Origin: Planktomarina temperata RCA23
GTDB lineage: Bacteria; Pseudomonadota; Alphaproteobacteria; Rhodobacterales; Rhodobacteraceae
Reading direction: 5' to 3'
DNA: 64,000 nucleotides
Assembly (NCBI RefSeq): GCF_000738435.1
Contig: NZ_CP003984.1
Location: forward strand, 1,178,001 to 1,242,000
Numbering within the stretch: position 1 is the first letter of the stretch; every line of letters starts with the position of its first letter. The translations under genes were made by a program, and so were the position numbers. The notes under the pieces were generated by a model. That model was given only the letters and a program-made list of their open reading frames with translations, searched no databases and was not told the origin of the DNA. This document shows, one piece after another, positions 793 through 21,895 of this stretch.

Positions 793-1848
793 ATGCTCAA
801 GACTATATTCAAAACGGCCAGCGCCATGACGTTCGCGCTAAGTGCAAGCGCGAGTTTCGCGCAAGTTAACTTGACATCCAACGCTGCTGGCGCGGGCACT
901 GCCGGTGCGCTATCCGCGACGTCGCTCGTTGAGAACGCAGCAGAGCGCGGCATCGCCAATATTCAAATGAAAGACGGACAAACCGGAACCAAATACATAA
1001 TGGCCCTCGCAGAAGGTAAAATTGACCTTGCCAGCGGACCTTTCATTCTACCGTTCTTGATGGCGAAAGCAGCTGGTCCATATTCCAATTTGGAAAAAGA
1101 CGCGGCTAAGGAGCTTGGTCATAGCATTGCTATGCTTTATCCTTACACATTCTCAATATTCACGCTTTATGCATATGATTCAAAAGGAATTTCTGGTTGG
1201 GATGACCTTAAGGGCATGAAGGTTTTGAACGGGCCACCACGTGGTACTGCCGCTTTGAACTCACGTAGCTTGATCCAGCTTTTCACCGGCCTGAAGCCAG
1301 AAGACGATTACGATACGGTGACAGTAAACTGGAGTCAGATGCCATCGGCGATTATCGACGGCACTGTTGATGCTGCTGTAATCCCTGCAATGTTCCCTGG
1401 ACCGCGGGTGACTCAAGCTTCCGCTGCGGGTTCAATGACAATGCACTCCATGCCCAAGGAATTGTTCGAAGCGCCGGCAACGCAGAAGTTCTTGAACAAG
1501 CCTGGCTCAACGCCTTTCGTTGTGCCGCTTGCAGACATCAAAGCGGCGATGGGTGAAGGTTGGACCATTGTGTCTGAGGATGACATGTTCCGCGGCAAAG
1601 CTGTGCCTGGTGGGGATCTTGTTAACAAAAGCATGGACGAAGAGCTGGCCTACCAACTCACAAAGTCGCACATCGAGAATTTAGATGAGATCAAAGCGAT
1701 GGCTCCATTCATGGCGACGCTCAACTTTGGTGATGTTTCCGAAAAAGCCAACGGTCTTTGTGGAGCGAACATTGTGAAATTCCACCCTGGCGCGGTACGT
1801 GCTTGGGAAGAAGCTGGACACACGCTACCTGACTGTTCCAAGCCTTAA
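793..1848 (+). CDS. TAXI-family TRAP transporter solute-binding protein
   Basis: A 351-residue periplasmic receptor of a TRAP transporter. The N-terminus has a signal peptide (MLKTIFKTASAMTFALSASA, then SFAQ). The body is of the TAXI (TRAP-associated extracytoplasmic immunogenic) class, ending in a short Cys-containing tail (GLCGANIVKFHPG, then LPDCSKP). The start at 793 is preferred over an upstream in-frame codon because AGGGAGGA lies just before it and the signal peptide starts there. It is followed by the fused TRAP permease, so the two form one transporter. The ligand is unknown; the downstream sulfatases suggest an organic sulfate (inference). Confidence 0.85.
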   Translation: MLKTIFKTASAMTFALSASASFAQVNLTSNAAGAGTAGALSATSLVENAAERGIANIQMKDGQTGTKYIMALAEGKIDLASGPFILPFLMAKAAGPYSNLEKDAAKELGHSIAMLYPYTFSIFTLYAYDSKGISGWDDLKGMKVLNGPPRGTAALNSRSLIQLFTGLKPEDDYDTVTVNWSQMPSAIIDGTVDAAVIPAMFPGPRVTQASAAGSMTMHSMPKELFEAPATQKFLNKPGSTPFVVPLADIKAAMGEGWTIVSEDDMFRGKAVPGGDLVNKSMDEELAYQLTKSHIENLDEIKAMAPFMATLNFGDVSEKANGLCGANIVKFHPGAVRAWEEAGHTLPDCSKP

Positions 1849-1940
1849 TCTGGTGAACACTTTCAGTTAGGGGGGGGGCGTAACGCATGTGCCCTCCTTT
1901 TCAATTTCCCTGCTCCAGTGGGTAAAAGGTTGCTTTCGTC

Positions 1941-4292
1941 ATGTCAGATCAAAACTCTACAAATTCCATAATAGCATTTCAAAAACCTGTGTTTGTAGAT
2001 CGACTAATCTACATTTTGGCACTTCTGCTTGTTCTGCTTGGTCTCATAAACGTGACACCTGCTATTCCGGGTTGGGACAATCTATGGAAGGATCTCACGG
2101 GAAACGAGTTTTTCAGAATACGGCGCTTCCCGACCGAGTGGTTGTTCCCGATCACCTTCTTCTGGATGATGCTGGTTGTTGCATTGAAAAAGTCTATGTG
2201 GCGTAGTTGGGCAAACAAAAGTGCAACTGTCCGCCGTTTTGGACTTTTTATGGATGCAGCGCTTGTAGTAGCCGCTGCAGCAATTTCGCTAACATACTTA
2301 GTCGAGATCGAATCCGTGTGCCTGATCGATAAATTTACCGGAGACCGTGAACGCCTGGTCGCCAAGGCATTACAGGCAGAAATTGACTTCGCTGAGCTTT
2401 ATGGGTTGCCCGTGCCTGACACAGCCGATGATCCGGGGTGCGCGACCACAACAGGTAGCTGGTTGATCTTAATCATGTTCAGCGCCGTTGCTGTTTTCCT
2501 TGGCTACAATATTAAAGTCTGGGGATTGCCGCTCGTCCTAGTCTCAATCCTGATAGCCGCTTATACTTTCTTTACAATTCTTAACTGGTATTTTTTTGGG
2601 CCAGAGGACCAAAACAAGTACTTAGTGACGATTTTAAGCAGTGAAGATGTCAGGAGCCTTGGATCTAGCCATGGGTTGTTCCAAGATGCCTTGGTCAATC
2701 AATCTTCTGGCCTGCTCGGTCGTTTCATCAATGTCCTGCTTGTTCTCGTGTTCCCATATGTCATTCTAGGTGCTCTTTTCGGCAAATGCGCGGGTGGCCA
2801 ATCTTTGATCAAGCTCGCCTTTGCTGCAACCCGCAACTTGCGCGGTGGCCCAGCCCATGCGGCCGTCGTGTCTTCCGCGATGTTTGGAACGATCACGGGC
2901 GGCCCAGTTGTGAACGTCTTGTCCACGGGCGTTTTGACGATCCCAATGATGCTCAAGCGGGGCTTCTCCAAAGTCTTTTCAGGCGGCGTAGAAGCTGCCG
3001 CCTCTTCCGGCGGTGCAATTATGCCGCCGATCATGGGCGTTGCTGCTTTCATCATGGCAGCTTTGACTGGTGTGCCTTATCGCGAGATTATCATTGCCGC
3101 AACTTTGCCCGCACTCTTCTACTTCTTCTGCTTGTTCCTCTCTGTCATGTTTCAAGCGCGTAAGCAAAAAATCGAAGCAGTCGGAGAATTAACTGAAGAC
3201 ATGAAACTAACAGGTGAGGATCGCCTTCATTTGATGCAAATCTTTGGTCCTGTTTTGTTGGTTCTGATACTTCTGCTTACTCCCAAAGACGCTGTCGGAT
3301 GCAGCTGGTATTCTATCATGCTGGGCGCAGTTGTTGATCAAAGAAACGGGACGTGCGAGATCACATCCTTGCCTTGGATCATCGAGCTGTGCCAAAACGC
3401 GGCGGGTGATGCAAGCGCGGCGGGATGGTGGGCGGTGTTCCTCCTACTTATCCTGATGTTCGTCGACAAATCCTTCCGTGCCAAACCGATGAAGATCTTT
3501 GATGGTCTGTCGCAAGCGGGCGTGACGATCTCCACATTGTTCTTAATGTTCGTCGCTGTCACTGTGATCGATGTATGCTTGAACTTCACAGGCCTTGCTA
3601 AATTTGTGGCCGTTGATGTGCTTGGTTTCCTCAATTCCTTTGATGTTTCCGCCAACTCTGCTGGTTTCCAACTGTTCGCATTATTTTTGACAATGCTTTT
3701 GGCAGTCCTACTCGGCATGGGAATGCCAGCGGTGCCAGCCTACATTAACGTTGCGTTGCTGATGGGTCCGATGCTTGTGGGCCTAGGACTTGCGACGTTC
3801 ACGGCGCATATGTTCATCTTTTACTTCGCAGTTGCCTCAGCTATCACGCCGCCCGTCGCATTGGCTGCGTTTGCAGCAGCGAGTATCACAAAGGCAGATC
3901 CGATGAAAACTGGTTTTTCGGCAGTGCGATCTGGTATCGTTATGTTCACCATTCCCTTCGTTTTCGCGCTCTACCCAGAATTATTGCTGATCGACAAGGC
4001 TGTGATCGATCCAAACAATGGGTTATTCATAGCGGGCTACGATGGCTCCCTCAATTTTGGCTGGTTGGCATTGCTGATGCTTCGCATCGCCGTGGCCCTT
4101 TATTTGGTGTCCAGCGCCCTTGCAGGGTTTGACCGCAAAGCGCTGAAACCGATAATGATCTGCACGCGCCTCATAATTGCAGTTCTGATCCTAGCGCGTC
4201 CGACCGAAATCTATGGTCTGGCATTAGCCGGGGGGTTTGTTCTGGTGGCATGGCATACGCTGCGCAGCCGTGATGAACTACCAACAACATAG
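1941..4292 (+). CDS. TRAP transporter fused permease (4TM/12TM), TAXI type
   Basis: A 783-residue inner-membrane protein fusing the small DctQ-like and large DctM-like subunits, as is usual for TAXI-TRAP systems. About four membrane segments occur in the first 230 residues. The large domain follows, with typical motifs such as GGPAHAAVVSSAMFGTITGG, GGAIMPPIMGVAAFIMAALTG and LGMGMPAVPAYI. It uses an ion gradient to import the ligand held by the 793-1848 binding protein. A 92-base gap containing a G-run separates it from that gene, and the sulfatase gene starts 11 bases after its stop, so all are probably one operon. Substrate unknown. Confidence 0.85.
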   Translation: MSDQNSTNSIIAFQKPVFVDRLIYILALLLVLLGLINVTPAIPGWDNLWKDLTGNEFFRIRRFPTEWLFPITFFWMMLVVALKKSMWRSWANKSATVRRFGLFMDAALVVAAAAISLTYLVEIESVCLIDKFTGDRERLVAKALQAEIDFAELYGLPVPDTADDPGCATTTGSWLILIMFSAVAVFLGYNIKVWGLPLVLVSILIAAYTFFTILNWYFFGPEDQNKYLVTILSSEDVRSLGSSHGLFQDALVNQSSGLLGRFINVLLVLVFPYVILGALFGKCAGGQSLIKLAFAATRNLRGGPAHAAVVSSAMFGTITGGPVVNVLSTGVLTIPMMLKRGFSKVFSGGVEAAASSGGAIMPPIMGVAAFIMAALTGVPYREIIIAATLPALFYFFCLFLSVMFQARKQKIEAVGELTEDMKLTGEDRLHLMQIFGPVLLVLILLLTPKDAVGCSWYSIMLGAVVDQRNGTCEITSLPWIIELCQNAAGDASAAGWWAVFLLLILMFVDKSFRAKPMKIFDGLSQAGVTISTLFLMFVAVTVIDVCLNFTGLAKFVAVDVLGFLNSFDVSANSAGFQLFALFLTMLLAVLLGMGMPAVPAYINVALLMGPMLVGLGLATFTAHMFIFYFAVASAITPPVALAAFAAASITKADPMKTGFSAVRSGIVMFTIPFVFALYPELLLIDKAVIDPNNGLFIAGYDGSLNFGWLALLMLRIAVALYLVSSALAGFDRKALKPIMICTRLIIAVLILARPTEIYGLALAGGFVLVAWHTLRSRDELPTT

Positions 4293-4303
4293 GAGCTATA
4301 ACA

Positions 4304-5887
4304 ATGAGCGAACGTTCGAGCTATATCCTCTTCATCACGGATCAACAGCGTTACGATCACCTGGGCTGTAACGGCCATCCGGTTCTGCGCACACCAAATA
4401 TTGATGCAATGGCAGCTGAGGGCGTGAGCCACGACCGGTTCTACGTTGCTTCTCCAGTTTGTATGCCAAACCGCGCAAGCCTTATGACCTGCCGTATGCC
4501 ATCAAGCCATGGAACACGCTCGCTTGGAATTCCTCTTAATCATGACAGTGTGACATTTGTTGAACTTCTTGCGAATGCTGGCTATGACACTTGCTTGATT
4601 GGCAAAAGCCATCTACAAAACGTATCCGATTTTGACATACAGATCGAACCAACCAAGCATCGGGAAGGTTTTACAGCGCCACCCGACGATCTGAATGTCG
4701 CGACCCGCTCGGACCTTGATAACGACACTTATCAGTACGAGCGTCAGGCGTACTGGGATAAACCCGACCCTAAAGTCCCAATACCGTTTTATGGTTTCAA
4801 AGAATACTTCGCAGTTATGCGGCATGGCTTCAACACAGGCGGAAGTCATCTCGAATGGGTCAAGAAGAACGCACCTGAAACTTTGGCTCTGCGTGGGCGT
4901 GACAAACAATTCGATCACGATTTCACCGTTCCTCAAGCGATCCGTACGAAAGTTCCAGAAGAACATTATTCCACGACCTATATCGCAAATCGTGCGGTTG
5001 AGTGGCTCGAAGCGAGGCGTAATAACAATAAGCCCTTCCTGCTGATGGTTTCCTTCCCTGATCCGCACCATCCGTTTACCCCGCCTGGAAAATATTGGGA
5101 CATGTACAAGCCCGAAGATATGGTCGTGCCTGCCGCATATGAAGCTGATGACTGGGATCCGCCCGAGTACATAAAAGTAGCCGAACGTGACCGTGCCAAA
5201 GATCCAAACCTGGGTCAAATGGAAGGCTATTCGGTGGCTGTCTCCAAACAGGAGGCGTTGGAGGCGCGCGCACTGACTTGCGGAATGATCTCGATGATTG
5301 ACGATGCGGTTGGCCGCGTGCGCGCGGCGGCGGCAGATGCAGGCGTCTCGGAAAATACTGTGCAAATATATACGTCCGATCATGGCGATCATTTGGGCGA
5401 ACATCGCCTTTTGTTCAAAGGAGCGGAGCAATACGACAGCCTCACGCACGTTCCATTCATTTGGGCGGATCCGAAAGGCGACAGCGGCACTCGTACAGAC
5501 GACTTAGCCCAAACACTTGATATTGGAACCACCATCCTTGAGCATGCGAAGGTCGAAAAATCGATAGGAATGCAAGGCGTCGTTCTAGCCGCTGCTGGTG
5601 GCGCGGGCAGGGAAGCCGCACATATTCAATATGAAACGCAACGCACGCAAGAAGCCTTTGGGCCTCGCCCCCGCGTTCATTCAATTGTTTATGAAAACTG
5701 GCGTCTCTCAATGTATCTTGGCAAGTGTCCTAACGAGCTTTTTGACCTCTCAAACGACCCTGGCGAAATGGTCAATCTTTGGTGCAGCGCTAAACATCAA
5801 GACGTGAAAGCGCGATTAGTAGAGCGCTTAGCGGAGTTGGAGATTGCTGCGGTCGATCGCGTACCTCTCCCCACGGCTCAGGCTTAA
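4304..5887 (+). CDS. Sulfatase (formylglycine type), probably cytoplasmic
   Basis: A 527-residue alkaline-phosphatase-superfamily sulfatase that should hydrolyse a sulfate ester. The maturation motif C-x-P-x-R is present as CMPNR at residues 53-57, where Cys53 would become formylglycine. Metal ligands are seen at Asp13 (FITDQQRYDHLG) and in YTSDHGDHLGEH, and the substrate-side motif SFPDPHHPF is present. There is no signal peptide, so it would act after TRAP uptake, as choline-sulfatase-like enzymes do. No formylglycine-generating enzyme is encoded in the window. The exact substrate cannot be read from the sequence. Confidence 0.88.
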   Translation: MSERSSYILFITDQQRYDHLGCNGHPVLRTPNIDAMAAEGVSHDRFYVASPVCMPNRASLMTCRMPSSHGTRSLGIPLNHDSVTFVELLANAGYDTCLIGKSHLQNVSDFDIQIEPTKHREGFTAPPDDLNVATRSDLDNDTYQYERQAYWDKPDPKVPIPFYGFKEYFAVMRHGFNTGGSHLEWVKKNAPETLALRGRDKQFDHDFTVPQAIRTKVPEEHYSTTYIANRAVEWLEARRNNNKPFLLMVSFPDPHHPFTPPGKYWDMYKPEDMVVPAAYEADDWDPPEYIKVAERDRAKDPNLGQMEGYSVAVSKQEALEARALTCGMISMIDDAVGRVRAAAADAGVSENTVQIYTSDHGDHLGEHRLLFKGAEQYDSLTHVPFIWADPKGDSGTRTDDLAQTLDIGTTILEHAKVEKSIGMQGVVLAAAGGAGREAAHIQYETQRTQEAFGPRPRVHSIVYENWRLSMYLGKCPNELFDLSNDPGEMVNLWCSAKHQDVKARLVERLAELEIAAVDRVPLPTAQA

Positions 5888-5892
5888 ATGAA

Positions 5893-6789
5893 ATGCCATT
5901 TGATACAACTTTTATCACGCTCGGAACCGCTGGTGGCCCTGTCCCAAAGCTTCATCGCGCTGCACCTTCTCATGCAATTACGTATGGCGATCGCGTGATC
6001 TTGATTGATTGCGGCGAAGGCGCGATGCAACAGTTGATGCGTGCTGGGATCGACTTTCGTCGCATTGATAAGGTCATCCTTTCGCATCATCATTTTGATC
6101 ATATTGGCAGTCTGTTTACCTGCCTCGGGATCAATATGATGCTGCAACGCAAACAGCCGATCACGATCTATGGTCCACCGGGCACGCGTCAAATCGTTGA
6201 GGGTCTCGCGATGGCCTGTGATATTCCGCAAGCCATTGGCTTTGGCGTCGTTGGTCAGTCACTTCCACATCCGCGAAATTTTGTTCAGGTTGAGGAAATC
6301 GCTCCAGGCGACACGTTTGAAATCGATAATATTCGCGTTTCATGCTGCGAAAACACGCATTATCGTGCCGAAACAGAACTGGGAATGAAGGGGCCTATCT
6401 CACTTTCTTTACGTTTTGACGCGCCTGATCGCTCTATAGTTTACACAGGCGACACGGGGCCGTGTCGCATGGTTGAGAATCTCGCCAAAGGCGCGCAACT
6501 GCTTGTGGGTGAAATGATGCTTGCAGAGCAAATCATAGCGCAGCTTCAGGAGAAGAATCCTCACATGACGTCAGAGCGCATCACGATGATGGGTCAGCAC
6601 CTTCATAGTCACCACCTGAGCCCAGAGCAATTGGGCGACCTCGCGGCCCGCGCGGGAGTTGCGCACGTGGTCGCCGTTCATATTCCGCTTGATAGTATCA
6701 CGCCAGAAACTGCGCCTGACTTTACAGCGCGAATTTCTCAAGTTTTTTCGGGTCAGGTTTCAATAGCCAACGATCTCGATCAGTTTTGA
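5893..6789 (+). CDS. MBL-fold metallo-hydrolase, RNase Z / AtsA arylsulfatase-like
   Basis: A 298-residue metallo-beta-lactamase-fold enzyme. The Zn-binding HxHxDH motif is H65-H67-D69-H70 within ILSHHHFDHIG, with further ligands likely at NTHYR, TGDTG and VAVHIP. The type resembles ribonuclease Z-like hydrolases, which include the Zn-dependent arylsulfatase AtsA. It starts 5 bases after the sulfatase stop and precedes a flavin-reductase gene, so it belongs to the operon. An AtsA-like sulfatase or a lactone/phosphodiester hydrolase are both possible; the context favours the first (inference). Confidence 0.78.
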   Translation: MPFDTTFITLGTAGGPVPKLHRAAPSHAITYGDRVILIDCGEGAMQQLMRAGIDFRRIDKVILSHHHFDHIGSLFTCLGINMMLQRKQPITIYGPPGTRQIVEGLAMACDIPQAIGFGVVGQSLPHPRNFVQVEEIAPGDTFEIDNIRVSCCENTHYRAETELGMKGPISLSLRFDAPDRSIVYTGDTGPCRMVENLAKGAQLLVGEMMLAEQIIAQLQEKNPHMTSERITMMGQHLHSHHLSPEQLGDLAARAGVAHVVAVHIPLDSITPETAPDFTARISQVFSGQVSIANDLDQF

Positions 6790-6803
6790 TTTAGGAAAAT
6801 CAT

Positions 6804-7622
6804 ATGACTTTGACTTCAAAAGTGGCTCAAGCCGCGCGCAAACGCACAGAACGCCCTATGCCACGCGTTTTAGTGGTCAAAGATGTGTGGCGTCTAACGC
6901 CCAATATGATCCGTGTTGTGTTTGCTGGCCCTGAGCTTGATGGTTTCCCGAGCGGGCGCGACGGCGGAAATTGCAAGCTGATGATCCCCGAAAATGGCGA
7001 AACTAAAGAGCATTTTGTCGAGCGTCTGAGCAGTGGTCCACCGCCCGTTAGACGCACTTACACGGTACGCAAGTTTGATGCCTTTACGCATGAATTAAGC
7101 ATCGATTTTGTTGCACATGGCGATGAAGGCCCTGCATCACGTTGGGCAAGTTCTGTCAGGGCTGGAGGTTTTCTGGGTTTCGCTGGTCCAAGTGAACCAA
7201 AGTTTATAGATTTTGATGCGGATTGGTATCTTGTTGCAGCTGATCCTTCGGCCATTCCGGTCGCAGCAGTTGCATTGGAGGCCATGCCACGTGATTCAAA
7301 AGGTGTCGCGATATTTGAGATCACTTCGGCATTAGATCGACAAGAAATCGACGCACCGGCAGGCATAAAGATACATTGGTTGGTGCATTCTGATCCCCAC
7401 AAAGCATCTACGCGCCAGGAAGACTTGATCAAAGCTATTGAATGGCCACAGGGCCGCGTAAAAACATGTATTGCAGGCGAGTCGGCCGTCATCCGGTCCT
7501 TGCGAGACTTCCTGATAAACGAAAAACAGGTGCCCCGCGAGGACACCTATATTTCAGGTTATTGGAAAATCGGTTTGATCGAAGACCAGCATCAAAAAGC
7601 CAAGCGAGGCGGGGCTGATTGA
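6804..7622 (+). CDS. Siderophore-interacting protein-type FAD/NAD(P)H oxidoreductase
   Basis: A 272-residue protein of the siderophore-interacting (SIP) flavin reductase family. Family motifs are RRTYTVRKFD (FAD binding), HGDEGPASRWA, VAADPSAIPVAA, a GES...IR segment and the C-terminal YISGYWKIGLIEDQHQ. Members normally reduce ferric siderophores. Here it is the last gene of a sulfatase operon, so it may supply electrons to another redox step or reduce iron. It is convergent with the alkylsulfatase-like gene, 17 bases away; GCGGGG (7609-7614) and CCCCGC (7624-7629) could form a weak shared terminator hairpin. Confidence 0.85.
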   Translation: MTLTSKVAQAARKRTERPMPRVLVVKDVWRLTPNMIRVVFAGPELDGFPSGRDGGNCKLMIPENGETKEHFVERLSSGPPPVRRTYTVRKFDAFTHELSIDFVAHGDEGPASRWASSVRAGGFLGFAGPSEPKFIDFDADWYLVAADPSAIPVAAVALEAMPRDSKGVAIFEITSALDRQEIDAPAGIKIHWLVHSDPHKASTRQEDLIKAIEWPQGRVKTCIAGESAVIRSLRDFLINEKQVPREDTYISGYWKIGLIEDQHQKAKRGGAD

Positions 7623-8971: not shown

Positions 8972-9000
8972 ATTAAGCAATTATGGGATCCCAAAATCAA
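8972..9000 (-). promoter_or_regulatory. Promoter of the alkylsulfatase-like gene with operator C
   Basis: On the minus strand, TTGATT (9000-8995) is followed after two bases by GGGATCCC (8992-8985, core centre 8988.5) and, at a 17-bp spacing, by CTTAAT (8977-8972). The operator lies between -35 and -10, as at the other promoters of this regulon. Confidence 0.6.
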
Positions 9001-9116: not shown

Positions 9117-9128
9117 TTTGGGATCCTA
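9117..9128. promoter_or_regulatory. Operator E (GGGATCC site in the dctP leader)
   Basis: TTTGGGATCCTA with core centre 9123.5. It lies downstream of the proposed dctP promoter, 49 bp before the start codon and 73 bp from operator D. It is probably an auxiliary site for the same regulator. Confidence 0.55.
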
Positions 9129-9176
9129 ATCTATCTGGTTCTAGTCAAGATTTGGATCTAACTGAGCGAGGAAACT

Positions 9177-10193: not shown

Positions 10194-10200
10194 ATATTTG

Positions 10201-12959: not shown

Positions 12960-12994
12960 TCGAATCCACACTATTTCCTATGGAACGCTAGTAG

Positions 12995-13909: not shown

Positions 13910-13930
13910 AATTTTGATTTCGTCTTTTTT

Positions 13931-14587
13931 CTGAGCAATTTTAGGAAACACGTTATTTTCGCAGTCAAATCTTTCTGGGATCACCCCTACGCATTCTAGG
14001 TGCTGCTCAGCCCTCCAGCAATTCTGATGATAGTTGGTCTCGCTTTGGGCGATAAGAGATCAATCCATCAATTGCTTCACCCTAGCAGCGAGGTTTCTGC
14101 ACGCTTCATGATCATCACCATGATAATCACACCTTTGAAGATACTTCGAAGGGGCAGGCGTGGTTTGCGTTGGTTGATGAAACGCCGTCAGTATCTTGCC
14201 GTTGCTGCCTTCGGTTACGGGCTGTTGCACAAGGTACTTTACTTGCACGACATAGGCACTGTTGGACTTTCTGGTGGTGAGATTTCAAAATTCTACATTT
14301 GAACTGGGTGGCTCGCTTTTTTCATCTTGGTCCCGCTTGCGATCACCTCCACAAACGGTTGGGTGCGCCGCTTTGAGCTTAAATGGAAATCGCTACAATG
14401 AGAGGTTTATGGCGCCGCAGTTTTGAAGTTGTTTCACTGGGACACGCTGTACGAATGGGGCGACATCGGCCCCACGCTTGTTCAGTTCATGCCGTTGGCG
14501 TTGCTTGAGACCTACCGCTCTATGTACACCGACGCAGAGGGTCCCAAGGTTTGGCTGCTTAATTGCCCGTTTGAGAGCTTTTCTTAA
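13931..14587 (+). pseudogene. Ferric reductase-like (MsrQ/YedZ-type) membrane protein, broken by three in-frame stops
   Basis: One continuous frame reads ...FWDHPYAF, stop (TAG 13997), VLLSPPAILMIVG...PSSEVSARFMIITMIITPLK...RRQYLAVAAFGYGLLHKVLY..., stop (TGA 14300), TGWLAFFILVPLAITSTNGW...WKSLQ, stop (TGA 14399), EVYGAAVLKLFHW...LVQFMPLALLETYRSMY. This is the six-helix haem b domain layout of the MsrQ/YedZ family, including candidate haem histidines in GYGLLHK and KLFHW. No frameshift is needed to follow it, so the decay is by nonsense mutation. No convincing start codon was found. The 3' end overlaps the minus-strand gene at 14559. Confidence 0.65.
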
Positions 14588-14990
14588 GGCGCTTCCAAAC
14601 CACCACACAGGCCAGAATTTCAATCGCAACTACGACAACATGCATACCAAAATCCATCGCCGGACTAGCAGGTGCATTTGCAATCGGGAAGAGTGGATCG
14701 ATAATCGTCTCAGTGCCTTCGCGTAGAATGTTCATGAAAAGCACCACAAGGAATTGCCGCGCATTTTGCGTGATCATAACAAAGATCGACGCTGCAGCCA
14801 TAGTTAACGTGCGACCACCCATCTCATAGACAAGATTCAAATCAGGCGTCCCATTGACCGTGACACCTGTTGCAGCAAGCAGATCATGATCGAAGAAATA
14901 CATGTAGACCTGACCGAGCATGATCAAAGTCAGCAGAACTTGAAGGACGTTTACCCAGATCGGAATGTCTGATTTCAGGAACTTTTGCAT
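14559..14990 (-). CDS. Small four-helix membrane protein, function unknown
   Basis: A 143-residue protein with about four hydrophobic segments (IWVNVLQVLLTLIMLGQVYM; LTMAAASIFVMI; FLVVLFMNIL; MHVVVVAIEILACVVVW). The ATG at 14990 lies one base after the stop of the double-OsmC gene, so translation is probably coupled; the TTG a few codons upstream is less likely. No family was recognised with certainty. It is the last gene of the operon starting with the aldehyde dehydrogenase. Confidence 0.7.
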   Translation of the reverse strand: MQKFLKSDIPIWVNVLQVLLTLIMLGQVYMYFFDHDLLAATGVTVNGTPDLNLVYEMGGRTLTMAAASIFVMITQNARQFLVVLFMNILREGTETIIDPLFPIANAPASPAMDFGMHVVVVAIEILACVVVWKRLKKSSQTGN

Positions 14991-14991
14991 T

Positions 14992-16176
14992 TTATGCAAT
15001 CCGTTTAATCTTGAGCTTTGTCTTCAAATCCGTCTTGCAGAAGGCGTGCAGAAAGCACGTCTTCTCTGAAATATCGAGCATCTCTTGCGCGGTTGCATCG
15101 CTCTCAGAGGTTTCAAGATAGACATGTGTTTCAATCGGATCCGCACTACCTGCTTTGCCAGTGCCACCGCTCGCGCCACCTAGGCTAAAGTGCGTGTCCT
15201 GCACGATGCGGTAATCAGGTAAGTCGAGTTTCAGCATCGACACGAAGCGTCCGAACTGCGTCATAAAGCAAAAGCCGATGCCAGCAGAGATCAGAGTATT
15301 CGCATCTGGTGCGCGGCCATCTTCTGAACTGAGTAGCATAAACGATGTTCCATAGGGCGAGTATTGCATCTGCTGGATTTGCTTAATTCCATCCTTTCGC
15401 AATTCAGCCACCGCACCAATATTTAGACGTCGGTTCTGCTCATCACTCAGGGAAGACGCGTTGGTCGCAGTACCACCGCTTACATCTTTTTTTGGTGTTG
15501 GTCCAACCTTGGTCATCAAGCCATCTGTAGCATCCGTAGGCATCGCTTTGGCAAAATGATCGCCGGGGTCAGGCAGTATCGTGCCGCTAAATTCAAAAGC
15601 ATTGGCGGTCGCTAGCTCTGAACCGTTTTTGCTCAACTTAAACAAGCTCTCAATCTGCCCACGCATCAAGCCATTGAGTGGAGATGCATAGGTAGCGTTC
15701 ACCAAAAAATCATTCAATGCAGCATCATCGAGATCACAATCAATCTCGACTTGTAGCTCAATATTTTCCGCTCCACCTACCATGGTACGCTTCATCATTG
15801 AGCCTTTCATAGTATAGTAATTATCCTGAATAAGCTTGAGCTTACGGATCTCAACACCCTGTTGTTCAGCTAGCGCTATGATTTCGTTCATGTAACTTGC
15901 AGCCATTCCGCAAGACAGAAACGCAAGTGGGCAGCAAGCCGCGTCATGGCCATTCAAGTACTGTCCTTCATCACTTACAAAACGCCATGTGTCGCCGGTC
16001 TTGGCAGAGCGCACCAAGGCCTCTTTCTGGAAACCACTCAACGAGCGCACCCATGTTCGATCCGCATCGCCTATGCGATTTTCAGGTGCTTGAATTCCAA
16101 TCTCATCTGCATTTGCAACTTTGAAGAACGGTGTTTGAGTGCTTCTTCCAATAATATCTTCGCCAAGATGTGCCAT
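14992..16176 (-). CDS. Tandem (double) OsmC-domain protein
   Basis: A 394-residue protein with two OsmC-like regions. Region 1 (about 60-185) has the helix GHDAACCPLAFLSCGMAASY with Cys81, Cys82 and Cys89. Where OsmC proteins carry the second active-site Cys it has YASPLNGLMRG, which lacks one. Region 2 (about 250-390) has GIGFCFMTQFGRFV (Cys301) and KTCFLHAFCKTD (Cys374, Cys380), so it keeps both. OsmC/Ohr proteins are thiol-dependent peroxidases or act on thiol-bound substrates. Its operon partners include a GST, so work on a glutathione-derived or oxidised intermediate is possible (inference). AAGGAA precedes the start. Confidence 0.72.
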   Translation of the reverse strand: MAHLGEDIIGRSTQTPFFKVANADEIGIQAPENRIGDADRTWVRSLSGFQKEALVRSAKTGDTWRFVSDEGQYLNGHDAACCPLAFLSCGMAASYMNEIIALAEQQGVEIRKLKLIQDNYYTMKGSMMKRTMVGGAENIELQVEIDCDLDDAALNDFLVNATYASPLNGLMRGQIESLFKLSKNGSELATANAFEFSGTILPDPGDHFAKAMPTDATDGLMTKVGPTPKKDVSGGTATNASSLSDEQNRRLNIGAVAELRKDGIKQIQQMQYSPYGTSFMLLSSEDGRAPDANTLISAGIGFCFMTQFGRFVSMLKLDLPDYRIVQDTHFSLGGASGGTGKAGSADPIETHVYLETSESDATAQEMLDISEKTCFLHAFCKTDLKTKLKIKRIA

Positions 16177-16216: not shown

Positions 16217-17854
16217 TTAGTGTGCTTTTGGCCCAGATTCGAAATCAGGAGCCGTTGCTGGAGGCTTTACGTCCTCTTCATTCCAGTACCCGATAAGCAC
16301 GCCAAACTTGTCCTCAAGACCGACCATTTGCTCCGCCCGTTCTTCTGATACGGTTTCGCGTTGGCGATACTGTAAAGACCAGTCAGCTAAAGCGTAGTGC
16401 ATATATTGCCGGGCATCTGTGTGATCATCTGAGTTTCCCAAATCGACAAATTCGTCTGGGTCATTTGTTAGATCAAACAGAATTGGCAAAAATCCGGGTG
16501 CGTGGATGTATTTCCATCGATCATTCTTGATCATATAGATCCGGCACTCGAGCGGTGCGCGACCTGTCTTTGGGCTGAAGGACTGTTGAAAATAATCATA
16601 TTCACTAACAACGAATTCGCGCCACGGCACGTCATTCCCTTGCAGTAAAGGCATTAGGGAACGACCATCAAGAATGTGCTTAGGCACAGCTCCACCAGCA
16701 TACTCGATAAACGTCGGCACAAGATCAATTGCTTCAACAGGTGCGTTCTGCACACTACCGCGCGTATTGTCACATGACGGATCAGGGTCGGAAATGATAA
16801 GTGGGACTTTAACGGCAGGATCGTGGAAAAAATCTTTGTCCCCCATCCAGTGATCACCAAAATATTCTCCATGATCTGATGTGAACACAATCATCGTGCT
16901 CTTCATAAGATCCTTTTTTTCCATGAACTCGAAAAGTATGCCAAGTTGATCATCTATTTGTTTGATCAGCCCCATATACGCAGGTATCACAGTCTCGCGG
17001 GCCTCTTCCCTGGAGAAAGTTTGCCCGCAAATCCGTTCTTGGAAGTGCTGTGCAAGTTGGTTGGTATTTTCGCGTTCTGTTTCAGACCTGTGAACATCCT
17101 GAACATCCGCCGCTGAGTACATATCGTTGTAGGGCGCAGGTGCAATGTAGGGCCAGTGTGGCTTGATATAACTCAGGTGAAGACACCATGGCTTTTCGCC
17201 ATCGTCTTCTTCGATAAATTGCATTGCGCGGCGGGTCATATAGGGTGTTTCGGAGTCTTCTTCACTTACCCGCGCTGGCAGTTGCGCGACATCATTGAAG
17301 AATCCTGAACGGATTTCGCCCCTGCGCTCAACCGAGTTCGCAGCCCAATGCCAAGGGTTCTCGTGGTCGTCATAGCCGCGTTCTTTGAGGTAATTATTAT
17401 ACGCAACATTCGGCTTCAAAACCAGGTCGGGATGGATACCATCATCACGCTCATAAGGTTCGAACCCGATTTGTGAATGATGCACACCGATCGGGCTCGC
17501 TGGTTCAATGCCGAGACGTTTCATCCCTTCTTGATCAGGGATCATGTGGGTCTTGCCTACTAGAACTGGGCGAATTCCCAAAGGCTTGAGATGGTCGCCA
17601 ATGTTAAGTTCTCCCACGCGCAAAGGTACGAAATTGGCGGTCGCCCCATGATTAGATGGATAGCGCCCCGTGTATGTACTCATGCGACTTGGGCCGCAAA
17701 TCGGAGACTGCACGTAAGCATTAGAAAAGCGAACACCGCGCTCTGCGAGAGAGTCGATGTTGGGCGTGTGCAAGGTCTTGTGACCTGCACAGGATAGGTA
17801 ATCATAGCGCAATTGATCGCACATGATGAAGAGGATGTTCTTGCGCTGGGACAT
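16217..17854 (-). CDS. Sulfatase (formylglycine type), second copy
   Basis: A 545-residue sulfatase with the canonical motif CGPSR at residues 53-57, Asp13 metal ligand (FIMCDQLRYDYL), HLSYIKPHWPYIAP and VFTSDHGEYFGDHWMGDK. No signal peptide is seen. It differs strongly from the sulfatase at 4304-5887, so it probably acts on another ester or position of the same substrate. It starts 5 bases after the SDR stop in the operon ALDH-GST-SDR-sulfatase-OsmC-membrane protein. Activity needs a formylglycine-generating enzyme encoded elsewhere. Confidence 0.88.
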   Translation of the reverse strand: MSQRKNILFIMCDQLRYDYLSCAGHKTLHTPNIDSLAERGVRFSNAYVQSPICGPSRMSTYTGRYPSNHGATANFVPLRVGELNIGDHLKPLGIRPVLVGKTHMIPDQEGMKRLGIEPASPIGVHHSQIGFEPYERDDGIHPDLVLKPNVAYNNYLKERGYDDHENPWHWAANSVERRGEIRSGFFNDVAQLPARVSEEDSETPYMTRRAMQFIEEDDGEKPWCLHLSYIKPHWPYIAPAPYNDMYSAADVQDVHRSETERENTNQLAQHFQERICGQTFSREEARETVIPAYMGLIKQIDDQLGILFEFMEKKDLMKSTMIVFTSDHGEYFGDHWMGDKDFFHDPAVKVPLIISDPDPSCDNTRGSVQNAPVEAIDLVPTFIEYAGGAVPKHILDGRSLMPLLQGNDVPWREFVVSEYDYFQQSFSPKTGRAPLECRIYMIKNDRWKYIHAPGFLPILFDLTNDPDEFVDLGNSDDHTDARQYMHYALADWSLQYRQRETVSEERAEQMVGLEDKFGVLIGYWNEEDVKPPATAPDFESGPKAH

Positions 17855-17859
17855 AAGGT

Positions 17860-18618
17860 TTAAAGGTTCACCTTGCCGCCATCGACGTTGATCGTCTGAC
17901 CAGTGATAAAATCGCTGTCAGATGTGCACAAAAATATGAGCGTTCCAAGAAGATCTTCGGGCACCATTTCGCGTTTGATCGAACGGGAATCAACGGTGGG
18001 AGCGCGTGCGCGATCCCATTTTTTGTTGTCGCGAATAGAGCTGCTTTCGGTTAGGCCAACGGCTATTGCATTGATTTGAATATTCTTTTCACCAAGTTCG
18101 CGCGCATGACCACGGGTCAAACCGATAACAGCGGCTTTGGATGCGGTGTAATGTGATAGGCCAGGAGGGCCATAATAGAACGTACCAGAGGCGATGTTGA
18201 CAATCTTGCCACCACCCGCGCGTACCAGCGCAGGAAGCGCAGCTTTAGTCGATTGGTGAATTGAGCGCGCGTTGATTGTCATAACCTTATCAAATTCGTC
18301 ATTATCGATCTGGAAAAACGGTTTCAGTTCCAAGTTTGCAAAGAGACCTGCGTTGTTGACAACGATGTTGAGCGCACCAAATTCTTCTTCAGCTTTCGCG
18401 ACCATCGCATTCAGATCATCATCTGATGTTACATCCACAATCATACCAACGGCACGGCCACCCTCTGCAGCGTTGATCTCGGCCACCACCTCTGCTGGGT
18501 CAAGAATGTCAGTCACCATGACGTTGGCCCCCTCATTGGCCAATTTTTTCGCATATTCCGCGCCAATGCCGCGCGCAGCACCAGTGATTGCGGCTGTTTT
18601 TCCAATTAGTCGGCCCAT
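17860..18618 (-). CDS. Short-chain dehydrogenase/reductase
   Basis: A 252-residue classical SDR. It has the cofactor motif TGAARGIGAEYAKKLANEGA, Asp at the end of beta-2 (VMVTDILD; favours NAD), NNAG, and the catalytic Ser, Tyr and Lys in NIASGTFYYGPPGLSHYTASK. It ends with FITGQTINVDGG. It should oxidise an alcohol, or reduce a ketone, of the desulfated compound, ahead of the aldehyde dehydrogenase in the same operon (inference). Confidence 0.87.
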   Translation of the reverse strand: MGRLIGKTAAITGAARGIGAEYAKKLANEGANVMVTDILDPAEVVAEINAAEGGRAVGMIVDVTSDDDLNAMVAKAEEEFGALNIVVNNAGLFANLELKPFFQIDNDEFDKVMTINARSIHQSTKAALPALVRAGGGKIVNIASGTFYYGPPGLSHYTASKAAVIGLTRGHARELGEKNIQINAIAVGLTESSSIRDNKKWDRARAPTVDSRSIKREMVPEDLLGTLIFLCTSDSDFITGQTINVDGGKVNL

Positions 18619-18636: not shown

Positions 18637-19455
18637 CTAGATTTCAATTTCAAGAATCTTAGCAACTTCTGGCCAGCTTTTGATCCCGTTCTCACGCAGA
18701 TCATTCGTGAGATCTTCGGGCACCCAGTCGATAAAGCAAGGTTTGAAATTCTCACGCGCTTCGATGGCCTCGAACCAGCGCTCCACATTGGGCAAACGTC
18801 CACCTTCCCACATGCCGCGCATCGACATCATTGCAAGACGATTGATGTAGGGTGTCAGCGCGATGTCAGCGATGGAGAATTTATTGCCAACCAGCCAATC
18901 ATTACCAGTCAGCGCTTTGTCCATCTTGTGCAGATAGCTGTCGTAAAGTTTAACTTTTCCCAACGCTCCAGGTGCCTCAAAGCCTTGGCGCACGATAGCA
19001 TCTTTGAAACTCTTCCAATCAGATGTGACAGAAAAATCTGGTGTGGAGGCAAGGAATTTATTTGCTCCTTCTTTACCAAGCTTGCGCAAAACTGTGTGGC
19101 GGTGCGAACATAAAAACGTCATCGCGCCACAAGCAGGATGCAGATCCTCATCCACCGCTTTGGTCCAATAGCGCGCCTGCGCGCGCTCCCAAGGATCTTT
19201 GGGATGAGTAGAATTTTCTGGTGCAATTTGATCGAGGTATTCGATGATCACAGTACTGTCTGGGATAACCAAGTCATCATGCACAAGTGTTGGCACAACC
19301 GACTTCGCATTGATCTTTTGATACTCGGGTGTGAATTGCTCACCTGCAAGAATATCGATGTAAACACCTTCCCATTTCATGCCTTTTTCCGCCATCGCAA
19401 AGCGAACCTTAGCAGCGCATACTGATGATCCGTGATGATAAAGTGTAAAAGTCAT
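18637..19455 (-). CDS. Glutathione S-transferase family protein (beta-etherase-like)
   Basis: A 272-residue GST beginning MTFTLYHHGSSVCAAKVRFA, with cis-Pro motif KSVVPTLVHDD, PDSTVIIEYLDQ and a C-terminal domain with RARYW-like helices and NKFSIADIALTPYINRL. The long helical domain recalls LigF-like GSTs that open ether bonds with glutathione; this is a resemblance, not proof. The start at 19455 overlaps the ALDH stop (ATGA), which rules out the longer Arg-rich ORF. It is paired with the 10273-11034 GST by common regulation. Confidence 0.83.
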   Translation of the reverse strand: MTFTLYHHGSSVCAAKVRFAMAEKGMKWEGVYIDILAGEQFTPEYQKINAKSVVPTLVHDDLVIPDSTVIIEYLDQIAPENSTHPKDPWERAQARYWTKAVDEDLHPACGAMTFLCSHRHTVLRKLGKEGANKFLASTPDFSVTSDWKSFKDAIVRQGFEAPGALGKVKLYDSYLHKMDKALTGNDWLVGNKFSIADIALTPYINRLAMMSMRGMWEGGRLPNVERWFEAIEARENFKPCFIDWVPEDLTNDLRENGIKSWPEVAKILEIEI

Positions 19456-20888
19456 AATTGCACCGTAACCCATTTGAGTTCTGTCATTGCTTCCATGTCT
19501 GCGTCCGTGCCTTCGCGACCTACGCCGCTTTCGCCATTTCCGCCAAAGGGCACATGGGCCTCGTCGTGAATGGTTGGACCATTTATGTGGCACATGCCCG
19601 CTTTGGAATTACGCACGAAGTGGAAAGCTTTGTCGATGTCTTTGGTGAATATCGCAGATGATAGCCCATATTCAGTGTCGTTCGCTTTTTCCAATCCTTC
19701 CTCGTAGTTCTCAATTGGATAGATCGCAGTGACTGGGCCAAATGTTTCCGTTTGGCAAACAGTCATGTCCTCCGATACCTCTGTGAGCAAAGTCGGCTGG
19801 CACCGATTACCTTCCCATTCGCCGCCGATCACATTTGCACCTTTGGCGCGCGCGTCGTCGATATGGCTTTTTATTCGTTCTCGTTGTCGTGGCGAAATTA
19901 TTGGCGCGATAACAGTATTCGGGTCGCGCAGATCGCCCATACCAAGTTTGCGGATGATCATCGAGAAACGCTTTACGAATTCATCGTATAAAGGTCGTTC
20001 CACATAGAAACGGCTCGACGCTATGCAGGCTTGTCCTGCGAACATAAAGACAGAGCGCGCGGCAAGCAGCATCACGTTGTCCAAGTCGGCATCTGCGAGG
20101 ATTATCGTGGGGCTTTTACCGCCCAATTCCAGCGTGTTCGGCGTTTTATTCTTGGCGCAGATCTCGTTGATATGCTGACCCACCAACGTTGAGCCTGTGA
20201 ACGTCAAAAAATCGATATCTTTGTGGCCGGTCAGATCATCGCCAATCTCTGCGCCCATGCCTGTTACCACATTATACACACCATCGGGGATACCAGCTTC
20301 TTCAACGATCTCCGCGAAGATCAAACTCAGATGAGGGGCCATTTCAGAGGGTAGATGGACAACCGTGTTTCCGACCGCCAAGGCATTGGCCACCAAACGT
20401 GTAGTCTTTATCAGTGGCACATTAAACGGTGTGATCACTGCGACAACACCAAGCGGTTCACGGATGGACATCGAGAACGTACCGGGGCGATCAGATGGGA
20501 TCGTCTCGCCACGCACATTGCGACACAAACCGGCGGCGGCACGGATCATCGTCAAGCCTTTAGTGAATTCAAACATTGCCTTTTGCACGGGTGAGCCGAT
20601 CTCGTCGATCAAGCAATTTACCAGATCTTTCTGACGCGCTTCCATGATTTCTGCGACCCGCAAGAGCCAGCGCTCGCGCTCGGTTGGCGTTGTTTCTTTG
20701 TAAGATGTGAAGGCTGCCTTTGCTGCCGCCACTGCATTGAAGATATCTTCGGTCGTTCCTTTCGCAGCAAAAGCATAATGCGAGTCGTCAAGAGGGTTAA
20801 ACACTTCGAACATTGCACCAGCCGCTGCATCGACCCATTGCCCTGCAATAAAGTGCTTCAAGGATTTACTGTCTGTCCCACCATCCAT
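19452..20888 (-). CDS. NAD(P)-dependent aldehyde dehydrogenase with an altered KPSE motif
   Basis: A 478-residue ALDH. Catalytic residues are present: Asn156 (TPFNVPL), Glu254 (ELGGKSP) and Cys288 (GQACIASS). GSTLVG and ETFGPV motifs are also seen, and the overall type is near vanillin/benzaldehyde dehydrogenases. The usual KPSE segment reads HLPSEMAP, so the cofactor-ribose-binding Lys is replaced by Leu179, which may change cofactor preference or affinity. It is the first gene of the six-gene minus operon, with operators F and G upstream. Confidence 0.87.
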   Translation of the reverse strand: MDGGTDSKSLKHFIAGQWVDAAAGAMFEVFNPLDDSHYAFAAKGTTEDIFNAVAAAKAAFTSYKETTPTERERWLLRVAEIMEARQKDLVNCLIDEIGSPVQKAMFEFTKGLTMIRAAAGLCRNVRGETIPSDRPGTFSMSIREPLGVVAVITPFNVPLIKTTRLVANALAVGNTVVHLPSEMAPHLSLIFAEIVEEAGIPDGVYNVVTGMGAEIGDDLTGHKDIDFLTFTGSTLVGQHINEICAKNKTPNTLELGGKSPTIILADADLDNVMLLAARSVFMFAGQACIASSRFYVERPLYDEFVKRFSMIIRKLGMGDLRDPNTVIAPIISPRQRERIKSHIDDARAKGANVIGGEWEGNRCQPTLLTEVSEDMTVCQTETFGPVTAIYPIENYEEGLEKANDTEYGLSSAIFTKDIDKAFHFVRNSKAGMCHINGPTIHDEAHVPFGGNGESGVGREGTDADMEAMTELKWVTVQL

Positions 20889-20943: not shown

Positions 20944-20957
20944 TTTGGGATCCCAAA
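20944..20957. promoter_or_regulatory. Operator F: TTTGGGATCCCAAA
   Basis: A perfect 14-bp palindrome centred at 20950.5. It is 56 bp upstream of the ALDH start and 73 bp from operator G. It lies downstream of the proposed ALDH promoter, mirroring operator E in the dctP leader. Confidence 0.65.
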
Positions 20958-21005: not shown

Positions 21006-21034
21006 TACAATTACCATTATGGATCCCAAATCAA
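21006..21034 (-). promoter_or_regulatory. Promoter of the ALDH operon with operator G
   Basis: On the minus strand, TTGATT (21034-21029) is followed closely by GGGATCC (core 21021-21026, centre 21023.5) and, at 17-bp spacing, by a weak ATTGTA (21011-21006). The block is nearly identical to operator C and its -35 at 8981-9000. Confidence 0.5.
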
Positions 21035-21072: not shown

Positions 21073-21101
21073 TTGACTTTGGGATCCCAATAGGCTGAAT
21101 G
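21073..21101 (+). promoter_or_regulatory. Promoter of the GntR gene with operator H
   Basis: TTGACT (21073-21078), two bases, then GGGATCCC (21081-21088, core centre 21084.5; with flanks TTTGGGATCCCAA). The -10 is poor. The start codon lies only 29 bases from the -35, so the transcript may be leaderless. The regulator probably controls itself. Confidence 0.55.
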
Positions 21102-21106
21102 GGCCT

Positions 21107-21895
21107 ATGGAATCTATTGATACAGAACTTGCAGCGCGAATTCGCAATGACATCGTGCTCGGCAATTATGGTGAAGAAGAACGCATCTCCGAGGCGCGCT
21201 TGTGCGATACCCACAAGGTTTCTCGCACGCCGGTGCGCCTTGCTCTTCGTATGTTAGAGCATGAAGGGCTCATTCGACGCAGCGAAGGGCGCGGCTATTT
21301 TGTTAACGCACCAAATGTAAATGACGTCTTGCAAGCAGTGCAGGTACGCGGCCACCTCGAAAGCCTCGCCGCGCGGCTCATGGCGCAATCGCCTGATCGA
21401 CTCAGCACACTTCCTATCTTGGAAGCGGCGATTGAAGAGATCGATAGGCTTATTTTAGTGGGCAAGATGGATCACGCTTCAATTCGCTTAATACAAAAAC
21501 AGAATGCAGTGTTTCACAAAACGATTTTGGAATGTTGCGGCAATGATTTTATCGGCTTTACGTGTAGTCGTATCAGTCACATGCCGATGCTAGAGGTTGG
21601 GGCCATGGTTTTCGATCGGCAAGTTCTGTCCACAAAGGAGGGCAAGGAGAGGAGCAACTTCCGCCTTAAACTTGGAAATTCACAACATAAAGTGATCTTT
21701 GAGGCCATTCAAAAGGGCGACGCTGTGCGAGCCGAAGGCGTTATGCGCGAGCATTCGAACACTATGATTGAATACATTCAGGTTTTTGAAAAGCGCACAA
21801 AAGAAGAGCTTACAATCAAAGATTTGATCGACTATTCTGGCCTCAGTGTTATGCGCAAAGAGCATGACACGACTGGGAAAGAAAAATCTCTGTAG
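21107..21895 (+). CDS. GntR-family regulator, FCD (FadR) subfamily, likely controller of the sulfatase regulon
   Basis: A 262-residue repressor-type regulator. A winged helix-turn-helix lies at about residues 8-70 (ERISEARLCDTHKVSRTPVR, then the wing GRGYFVNAP). An all-helical FCD ligand domain follows, with metal/ligand residues in NAVFHKTILE and a C-terminal NSQHKVIFEAIQKGD, then EHSNTM. It is divergent from the ALDH operon and has a GGGATCCC operator in its promoter. The same box precedes the alkylsulfatase, TAXI-TRAP and DctP-TRAP transcripts, so it is the obvious candidate for their regulator. No Shine-Dalgarno sequence precedes the ATG. Confidence 0.87.
   Translation: MESIDTELAARIRNDIVLGNYGEEERISEARLCDTHKVSRTPVRLALRMLEHEGLIRRSEGRGYFVNAPNVNDVLQAVQVRGHLESLAARLMAQSPDRLSTLPILEAAIEEIDRLILVGKMDHASIRLIQKQNAVFHKTILECCGNDFIGFTCSRISHMPMLEVGAMVFDRQVLSTKEGKERSNFRLKLGNSQHKVIFEAIQKGDAVRAEGVMREHSNTMIEYIQVFEKRTKEELTIKDLIDYSGLSVMRKEHDTTGKEKSL

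Follow-up and report, generated by a model that had tools for sequence, protein, structure and literature searches.

Which compound would a pelagic roseobacter take apart with two importers, three sulfatase folds and two glutathione S-transferases (GSTs) under one regulator? The question is raised by a block of about 18 genes at positions 793-21895 of a 64,000-nucleotide stretch of the Planktomarina temperata RCA23 genome (the window, G000:C1:1178001-1242000; the genome is a single contig of 3,288,122 bases). The block is almost certainly one conserved, co-regulated catabolic system, and the reading that we favour, tentatively and at a little under an even chance, is a single GntR regulon for breaking down a benzyl or phenol compound that is sulfated and probably halogenated (bromine being the most likely halogen). 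This reading starts from features taken directly from the sequence, i.e. the gene content, a shared operator, the conservation of the block, a solute-binding protein (SBP) without the carboxylate-binding arginine and GSTs with a Ser-x-Cys motif.

By direction and spacing the genes form four units plus a separate regulator gene of the GntR/FCD family (21107-21895, forward strand; PF00392/PF07729). Unit 1 (793-7622, forward) encodes a TAXI-family SBP of a TRAP transporter, a fused TRAP permease, a sulfatase (SulfA), an AtsA-like hydrolase of the metallo-beta-lactamase (MBL) fold and a SIP-type flavin reductase; unit 2 (reverse) consists of an SdsA-like gene alone; unit 3 (9177-13909, forward) encodes DctP, GST1, DctQ, DctM and EamA; and unit 4 (20888-14559, reverse) encodes an aldehyde dehydrogenase (ALDH), GST2, a short-chain dehydrogenase (SDR), a second sulfatase (SulfB), a double-OsmC protein (OsmC2) and a small open reading frame (ORF), with SulfB lying between SDR and OsmC2 within one unit. 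Every part named in the first-pass annotation was found where it had been placed, and the common operators proposed there were confirmed as a shared palindrome. Sites with at most two mismatches to TTTGGGATCCCAAA occur six times in the window against 0.46 expected, a number reached in 0 of 100 shuffles, and each of the six falls in a promoter gap of the block. A perfect site (536-549), within a perfect 28-bp palindrome (529-556), stands upstream of the TAXI-TRAP/sulfatase unit; the gap between the sdsA-like gene and dctP holds one site with one mismatch (8982-8995) and, before dctP, a weaker one with two (9117-9130); and the ALDH/GntR gap holds a perfect site upstream of ALDH (20944-20957), one with two mismatches (21017-21030) and one with a single mismatch upstream of GntR (21078-21091). 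The pattern WTTTTGGGATCCCAAAAW, at up to three mismatches, has four window sites against 0.19 expected. Genome-wide (3.29 Mb), all three sites within one mismatch of TTTTGGGATCCCAAAA and four of the eight within two fall in the block; relaxing the limit to three mismatches gives a total of 41 sites, compared with 29 for the reversed control, and weak sites outside the block are therefore near chance.

The same holds in other genomes, where 53 loci (951,114 bases, four of the loci being nearly identical to the window) contain 142 sites of the core pattern, 135 of them at -60 to 450 bases upstream from mapped cluster genes, seven elsewhere and none inside a mapped cluster gene. Only three such sites occur in 65 control loci (1,217,875 bases), i.e. 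the surroundings of SulfB paralogs and of genes for the reductive dehalogenase RdhA. The operator precedes GntR in 39 of the 53 loci, DctP in 29, the SdsA-like gene in 17, ALDH in 11, SulfB in 10, GST1 in 6, DctQ and TAXI in 3 each and GST2 in 1. With an operator common to its promoter regions and conserved across genomes, the block behaves as a single GntR regulon, the GntR protein being the presumed reader of the sites.

The conserved core was first seen in the neighbourhoods of double-OsmC and SulfA matches, the double-OsmC search being positive in 13 of 244 genomes of the order, and an alignment of five GST2 proteins was therefore run once against a collection of named genomes, giving 54 loci (L139-L192). 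One of these, L192 (GST2 36%), was dropped for having no other cluster gene in its flanks, which left the 53 loci. SulfB alone had been rejected as a probe because homologs of 46-57% are widespread, and GST2 served better: in 31 stretches around SulfB homologs (29 elsewhere, two paralogs in the window's genome) the other block genes are mostly missing, with TRAP genes in five (L051, L052, L053, L062, L068), a weak SDR in three and GST, GntR and ALDH in one each. Among the 38 loci that span 18 kb or more, all found through GST2 and counted with identity thresholds set per gene, SDR is present in 38, ALDH in 37, GntR in 36, OsmC2 and DctQ in 34 each, DctM in 33, DctP in 31, GST1 in 27, the SdsA-like gene and SulfB in 22 each, TAXI and the fused permease in 10 each, SIP and LigB in 4 each, SulfA and the small ORF in 3 each, EamA in 2, the AtsA-like gene in 1 and RdhA in 0; since flanks extend at most 10 kb, the outer genes are undercounted. 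The conserved core thus comprises GntR, DctPQM, ALDH, GST2, SDR and double OsmC, and the co-occurrence that the first-pass annotation had set as a test was found, with the core largely together in the 53 loci. Its claim of a single function is therefore upheld, by operator and co-occurrence, as one regulon and one conserved system; the AtsA-like, SIP and EamA genes and the 146-residue ORF do belong to the block of the window but, within the reach of these flanks, lie outside the widely conserved part.

Judged by record titles, the hosts are mainly Rhodobacterales, followed by metagenome-assembled genomes (MAGs) of the Rhizobiaceae group and gammaproteobacteria (the Granulosicoccus group and a Chromatiales symbiont of Bugula), besides single MAGs titled Geminicoccus and Saprospiraceae. 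In L139-L142 GST2 is identical over 279 residues to that of the window; one of these loci comes from isolate IMCC1909, which is named among RCA genomes in an excerpt of PMC10675870. Of 49 cluster genomes (those of the 53 loci less four short ones), 36 have a SulfB ortholog (at least 60%), compared with 0 of 239 other genomes of the class sample, where the best match is 57%. This contrast (Fisher p ~3e-35, kinship ignored) is overstated by an unknown amount because phylogeny was uncontrolled and the class sample includes just two further genomes from the window's family.

Three sulfatase folds, together with the operator upstream of SulfB (10 loci) and of the SdsA-like gene (17 loci), make it very likely that the substrate is sulfated. 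SulfA (4304-5887, forward; PF00884 1e-50) and SulfB (16217-17854, reverse; PF00884) carry the formylglycine motif C-x-P-x-R as C-M-P-N-R and C-G-P-S-R, respectively, and are predicted sulfate-ester sulfatases. The best PDB match of SulfB is 4upi (1e-188), followed by 4upl, both named 'sulfatase family protein' and credited with arylsulfatase activity; relative to the arylsulfatase/PMH group of the alkaline phosphatase superfamily, SulfB is thus close to 4upi, but with the PehA model it reaches only 318 of 900 bits, a long way short. The SdsA-like alkylsulfatase (7640 to about 8920, reverse) shares with SdsA1 the MBL catalytic domain (PF00753) and the dimerisation domain (PF14863, 3e-44), and its metal motif HSHRDH is found in 27 of 27 sequences; the match spans residues 105-519 of the 658 of SdsA1, whose C-terminal domain, which we take to be SCP-like, is missing. 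The RNase Z/AtsA-like hydrolase (5893-6789, forward) was assigned by domain and family matches, and in three genomes its homologs (57-63%) are found no more than about 5 kb away from reductive dehalogenase genes.

Of the transporters, DctPQM points to an aromatic ligand. The closest solved sequences to DctP (9177-10193, forward) are 5iga, 5i5p, 7nr2, 5im2 and 4p56, and of the best 14 PDB matches listed for its AlphaFold model (mean pLDDT 88.4), 13 are marine aromatic-acid-specific SBPs or TarP entries (one in an open form) with coumarate, cinnamate, ferulate or caffeate in their titles, the remaining one being 5im2, whose ligand is not readable from its title. By both fold and sequence the protein is therefore nearest to aromatic-ligand SBPs of the TarP type. 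The arginine which, according to passages of PMC11668362, binds the carboxylate (or sulfonate) in TRAP SBPs is present in the five best-matching SBPs but replaced by Val167 in 32 of 32 aligned cluster DctPs. Given this combination, the ligand is probably aromatic but not a plain carboxylate, and a sulfate ester without a carboxylate would fit. Its permease subunits are DctQ (11053-11601, forward; PF04290) and DctM (about 11598-12959, forward; TIGR00786 313 bits, over the cut-off). The TAXI SBP (793-1848, forward) exceeds the cut-off of PF16868 (2e-23), falls slightly below that of TIGR02122 (82 bits, cut-off 84.35) and matches two TAXI SBPs in the PDB at 5e-5; the fused permease (1941-4292, forward) scores 352 bits with TIGR02123, over the cut-off. 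Five relatives (L150, L152, L167, L171, L180) harbour two diverged dctP genes within one cluster, either adjacent or with GST1 between them (L150, L152), which suggests two ligands for one permease.

That the substrate is aromatic we consider likely, also in view of the genes next to the block in some relatives. In L139-L142 a protocatechuate 4,5-cleavage set adjoins GntR, i.e. equivalogs of LigA, LigK and 4-oxalomesaconate tautomerase and a LigB subfamily member, all over their cut-offs, plus a LigI-like hydrolase under its model's cut-off. LigB occurs in seven of the 53 loci (L139-L142, L147, L168, L190), and an eighth genome, that of L166, has it about 13 kb from GST2 on a contig that was matched through the coordinates of SulfB; anywhere in the genome it is found in 34 of 49 cluster genomes, a figure with no background rate to compare. 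The homology of the window to L139 and L142 ends at 22355, at an IS240-type transposase, and the stretch at this break (22349-24112) holds a piece of that transposase and a tyrosine recombinase. Because its sisters carry the 4,5-cleavage genes there and the window's genome has no LigB match, these genes were probably lost or replaced at 22355; the window's genome has two intradiol dioxygenase matches.

The GSTs and the double-OsmC protein are the parts that would connect the block to halogenated rings. GST1 (10273-11034, forward; assigned by domain match and motif) has SNCS and GST2 (18637 to about 19476, reverse, its start overlapping the end of ALDH) has SSVC at the active-site turn; SNCS is kept in 27 of 28 GST1 and SVC in 41 of 43 GST2 sequences, and S25 and C27 are invariant in 28 of 28 aligned GSTs, including two of plasmid pBAM2 and one each from Cupriavidus, Pacificitalea and Novosphingobium plasmids. 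Among plasmid matches to GST2, pBAM2 ranks first by coverage times identity, with three other plasmids giving more bits. That the GSTs are the dehalogenases is a possibility to which we give somewhat less than even weight.

The double-OsmC protein (14992-16176, reverse; PF02566 60 bits in two stretches, NF041052 111 bits, over the cut-off of 95) has four cysteines (Cys147, 303, 374 and 380) invariant in 27 of 27 aligned sequences. It has no match in the PDB by sequence at E 0.01; in its model (pLDDT 84.1) OsmC domains are recognised by fold, single OsmC proteins being matched weakly (best E 2e-4) and no two-domain relative appearing among the best 50 matches listed, and no function of the double-OsmC family was found. 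It matches five of 72,556 plasmid records. The best two matches are on pBHB of Comamonas sp. 7D-2 (50.5%), with a reductive dehalogenase, pobA, ligA and a LigB-type gene in the locus, and on pOM-1 of Nitratireductor sp. OM-1 (49.2%), with a reductive dehalogenase, ALDH, pobA and ring-cleavage and downstream genes; the third (Pacificitalea) sits with DctPQM and an S-x-C GST, and the remaining two are Streptomyces plasmids (26-28%). As the two closest plasmid relatives thus lie in debrominase loci, general peroxide handling, part of the role in dealing with thiol or peroxide products that had been proposed for OsmC, is the weaker, minor option. In L112 and L179 (the latter titled Amylibacter ulvae), tandem double-OsmC genes (63% and 78%) lie beside the core, adjoined by a FAD-binding monooxygenase-type gene and a second DctPQM.

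Under the favoured reading, the sulfated aromatic would be imported by DctPQM and/or the TAXI-TRAP system. The alkyl (benzylic) sulfate would then be removed by the SdsA-like hydrolase, and the aryl sulfate by the formylglycine sulfatases, perhaps also by the AtsA-like enzyme. The freed benzyl alcohol would be converted to the aldehyde and on to the benzoate by the SDR (17860-18618, reverse; PF13561 4e-57) and the ALDH (19452-20888, reverse; PF00171 3e-150), after which the two S-x-C GSTs would displace the ring halogen with glutathione and the cysteine-rich double-OsmC protein would act on the glutathione adduct or a reactive quinone. Finally, the ring would leave as protocatechuate or a close relative and enter 4,5-cleavage, for which the genes are adjacent in some relatives; in the strain of the window, where no LigB was found, an intradiol dioxygenase would take its place. 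The first-pass annotation had proposed import, desulfation, alcohol/aldehyde oxidation and glutathione chemistry, and as a working model this sequence of events is supported.

By their number and kind, the enzymes would suit a compound that bears both an alkyl and an aryl sulfate and has a benzylic carbon as well as halogens on the ring. Such a compound exists in nature: in an excerpt of PMC9322897, lanosol is 2,3-dibromo-4,5-dihydroxybenzyl alcohol and lanosol-4,7-disulfate is a natural compound. Red-algal lanosol-4,7-disulfate, with two bromines, one aryl and one benzylic sulfate, would fit as a candidate substrate. It is tempting to speculate that the block encodes an undescribed mineralisation of naturally sulfated bromophenols of the lanosol-disulfate type, in which two sulfatase chemistries would be followed by a debromination to protocatechuate that uses glutathione and needs no cobalamin, and which would be found in pelagic roseobacters of the Planktomarina group as well as in further marine alpha- and gammaproteobacteria, including some from animals and algae; in this full form the proposal is rather unlikely, and the glutathione-based debromination is inferred.

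Several observations weigh against the favoured reading. The window's genome lacks a LigB match; the 4,5-cleavage genes of L139-L142, L168 and L190 have no operator site; 13 of the 49 cluster genomes are without a SulfB ortholog of at least 60%, besides the overstatement of the SulfB contrast noted above; and the block, in contrast to pBAM2, showed no gene for a glutathione reductase. Further points concern RdhA. A self-sufficient RdhA (NpRdhA-type structures 1e-165) of Amylibacter cionae (L108) adjoins an AtsA-like gene and lies about 6 kb from OsmC2. This locus had suggested RdhA as a cluster gene, an idea that was rejected because RdhA is absent from all 53 loci (in A. cionae it is located just beyond the flank) and because 16 further RdhA stretches of cluster genomes (L281-L296) lack the block's sulfatases, MBL and OsmC. 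RdhA is moreover common in the order regardless of the cluster, with 132 of 244 order-sample genomes positive (140 matches less eight covering the reductase domain alone), among them 12 of the 13 OsmC2 genomes. Its higher frequency in cluster genomes (41 of 49, compared with 126 of 238 in the order sample) speaks for halogen, with phylogeny uncontrolled; the genome of the window carries a copy at genome positions 1890662-1893853. Of 39 viewed stretches around RdhA from cluster or OsmC2 genomes, seven (L108, L243, L244, L246, L251, L252, L258) contain OsmC2, MBL or a sulfatase of the cluster type (40% or more), compared with two of 24 controls (L302 and L304, each with a SulfB paralog of 53%). 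This is no clear difference, and L108, L243, L244 and L246-L248 were chosen with the linkage partly known beforehand; about a dozen further RdhA places were left out. As the difference is unconvincing, the case for a halogenated substrate, to which we give about an even chance, comes chiefly from the OsmC plasmids and the family of the GSTs. According to passages of PMC13101508 and PMC10463259, roseobacter RdhA enzymes debrominate bromophenols, which are therefore a compound class used by such bacteria. Outside the cluster, sulfatase or AtsA-like genes lie near reductive dehalogenase genes in L243, L251, L252, L258, L302 and L304, and sulfated halophenols may be substrates of those RdhA loci too.

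The alternative that survives best, although we consider it unlikely, is a sulfated aromatic or alkyl compound free of halogen, in which the GSTs would work as isomerases or would detoxify an aldehyde, epoxide or quinone that arises in the process. PcpC and zeta-class isomerases both carry the S-x-C motif, so the motif does not single out dehalogenation and fits zeta-class enzymes as well, a further point against our reading, as is the absence of RdhA from the loci. The best NCBIfam model of both GSTs is maleylacetoacetate isomerase (maiA, TIGR01262), but GST1 (75.6 bits) and GST2 (87.6 bits) both miss its cut-off of 171.05; the lack of a ring-cleavage dioxygenase among the window's block genes and the OsmC link to debrominase plasmids also speak against a halogen-free substrate.

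More unlikely still is a sulfated lignin-like or phenolic beta-ether, in which the SDR would oxidise C-alpha, GST2 cleave the ether, GST1 remove the glutathione and ALDH finish, the product entering protocatechuate cleavage. The best PDB match of GST2 is the beta-etherase LigF, over its whole length (84.7 bits), which counts for this alternative and against ours; the alternative is also supported by the likeness of DctP to TarP proteins crystallised with coumarate and ferulate and by the 4,5-cleavage genes adjoining the block in some relatives. In GST2, however, the active-site turn is SSVC where LigF has other residues, the NCBIfam beta-etherase model (NF042997) gives 19.8 of 440 bits for GST2 and no match listed for GST1, and the double OsmC in debrominase loci would be left unexplained. 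Membership of the GSTs in either the beta-etherase or the maiA family was thus rejected on the model cut-offs. Of the glutathione-dependent cleavage proposed at first pass, the glutathione chemistry is retained in the working model, while ether cleavage becomes a weaker option, since GST2 fails the beta-etherase model and carries SSVC and the gene links point to a halogenated ring.

Two separate functions under one regulator, i.e. a DctPQM-ALDH-GST2-SDR-OsmC core for an aromatic and, unrelated to it, a module that scavenges sulfate, are very improbable: the core does occur without a SulfB ortholog in those 13 of 49 genomes (e.g. L173, L188), with TAXI-TRAP in only 10 and SulfA in only 3 of the 38 long loci, but SulfB orthologs track the core (36 of 49 against 0 of 239), the operator precedes sulfB and the sdsA-like gene, and SulfB of the window sits between SDR and OsmC in the same transcription-direction unit.

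As to the remaining genes, the SIP-type flavin reductase (6804-7622, forward; PF04954/PF08021) and the EamA-type exporter (12995-13909, forward) were assigned by domain matches, and the 146-residue ORF (14559-14999, reverse) is without a Pfam or NCBIfam match. The shorter starts of the SdsA-like gene and DctM were taken from ORFs of near-identical loci. No RNA element was matched by an Rfam scan of window positions 1-26000, and no promoter or terminator was found in a scan of 13850-14700. The core operon of relatives includes two genes that are not in the window, i.e. a conserved cupin protein after SDR in 10 loci (e.g. L163, L173, L180, L188) and a DUF2218 protein in seven loci (in one of them away from SDR).

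A site-specific-recombinase-like gene, judged by eye, lies upstream of the block, to the left of the window (L297:10257-11861), and the block may therefore sit in an acquired island. To its right follow an AT-rich stretch (24468-26498; GC 0.37 in 24001-26000) with a 676-residue ORF weakly matching peptidoglycan-binding and alginate-lyase-like domains, branched-chain-amino-acid-type ABC transporter genes and then another IS240-type transposase (28137-34558), and an MHYT/LytTR protein followed by genes for a molybdoflavoprotein of the CO-dehydrogenase type (38048-43142). Elsewhere in the same genome (L062, G000:C1:2761601-2781600), a SulfB paralog (53%) is located beside a TAXI-TRAP system (34%/48%) and a DctP/DctM pair (27%/39%), possibly a paralogous organosulfate locus.

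Each known system resembles only a part of the block. The bromoxynil (bhb) plasmid pBHB, for which an excerpt of PMC10463259 describes catabolic debromination, has a double OsmC and a transporter binding protein like the block, and 4,5-cleavage genes like those beside the blocks of some relatives; unlike the block, it has a reductive dehalogenase and pobA, and no sulfatase, GST, SDR or DctPQM in a 31-kb stretch. With pBAM2 of Aminobacter sp. MSH1 the block shares TRAP DctPQM and S-x-C GSTs related to GST1 and GST2 (31%), but pBAM2 additionally has a glutathione reductase and, in a 29-kb stretch, no sulfatase, OsmC, SDR or ALDH; we take it to be a plasmid for 2,6-dichlorobenzamide degradation whose GSTs dechlorinate. 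In the LigDEFG beta-aryl ether pathway, which is not known to include sulfatases, an SDR and several GSTs feed protocatechuate 4,5-cleavage; its likeness to the block is that of GST2 to LigF, with the differences in etherase model and active-site turn given above. Isoprene and styrene GST clusters (IsoI-IsoH-IsoJ) have two GSTs, an SDR and an ALDH in a row, a likeness in gene content alone, and the block of the window is without a monooxygenase. No paper describing this gene set was found in an open-licence library by title and abstract start, subscription papers being outside this coverage, and within the same scope the earlier statement that no described pathway has this set stands. Every named part is of a known family and catabolic regulons are of a known kind; the new element is that a single conserved operator unites desulfation and glutathione chemistry.

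Marine algae and animals produce sulfated and halogenated aromatics, and to our knowledge few pathways return them to CO2, sulfate and bromide. If the favoured reading is true, the block would offer two transporters whose ligands can be tested, would assign the double-OsmC family a role, and would be a genomic marker for the flux of sulfated or halogenated aromatics in abundant ocean bacteria.

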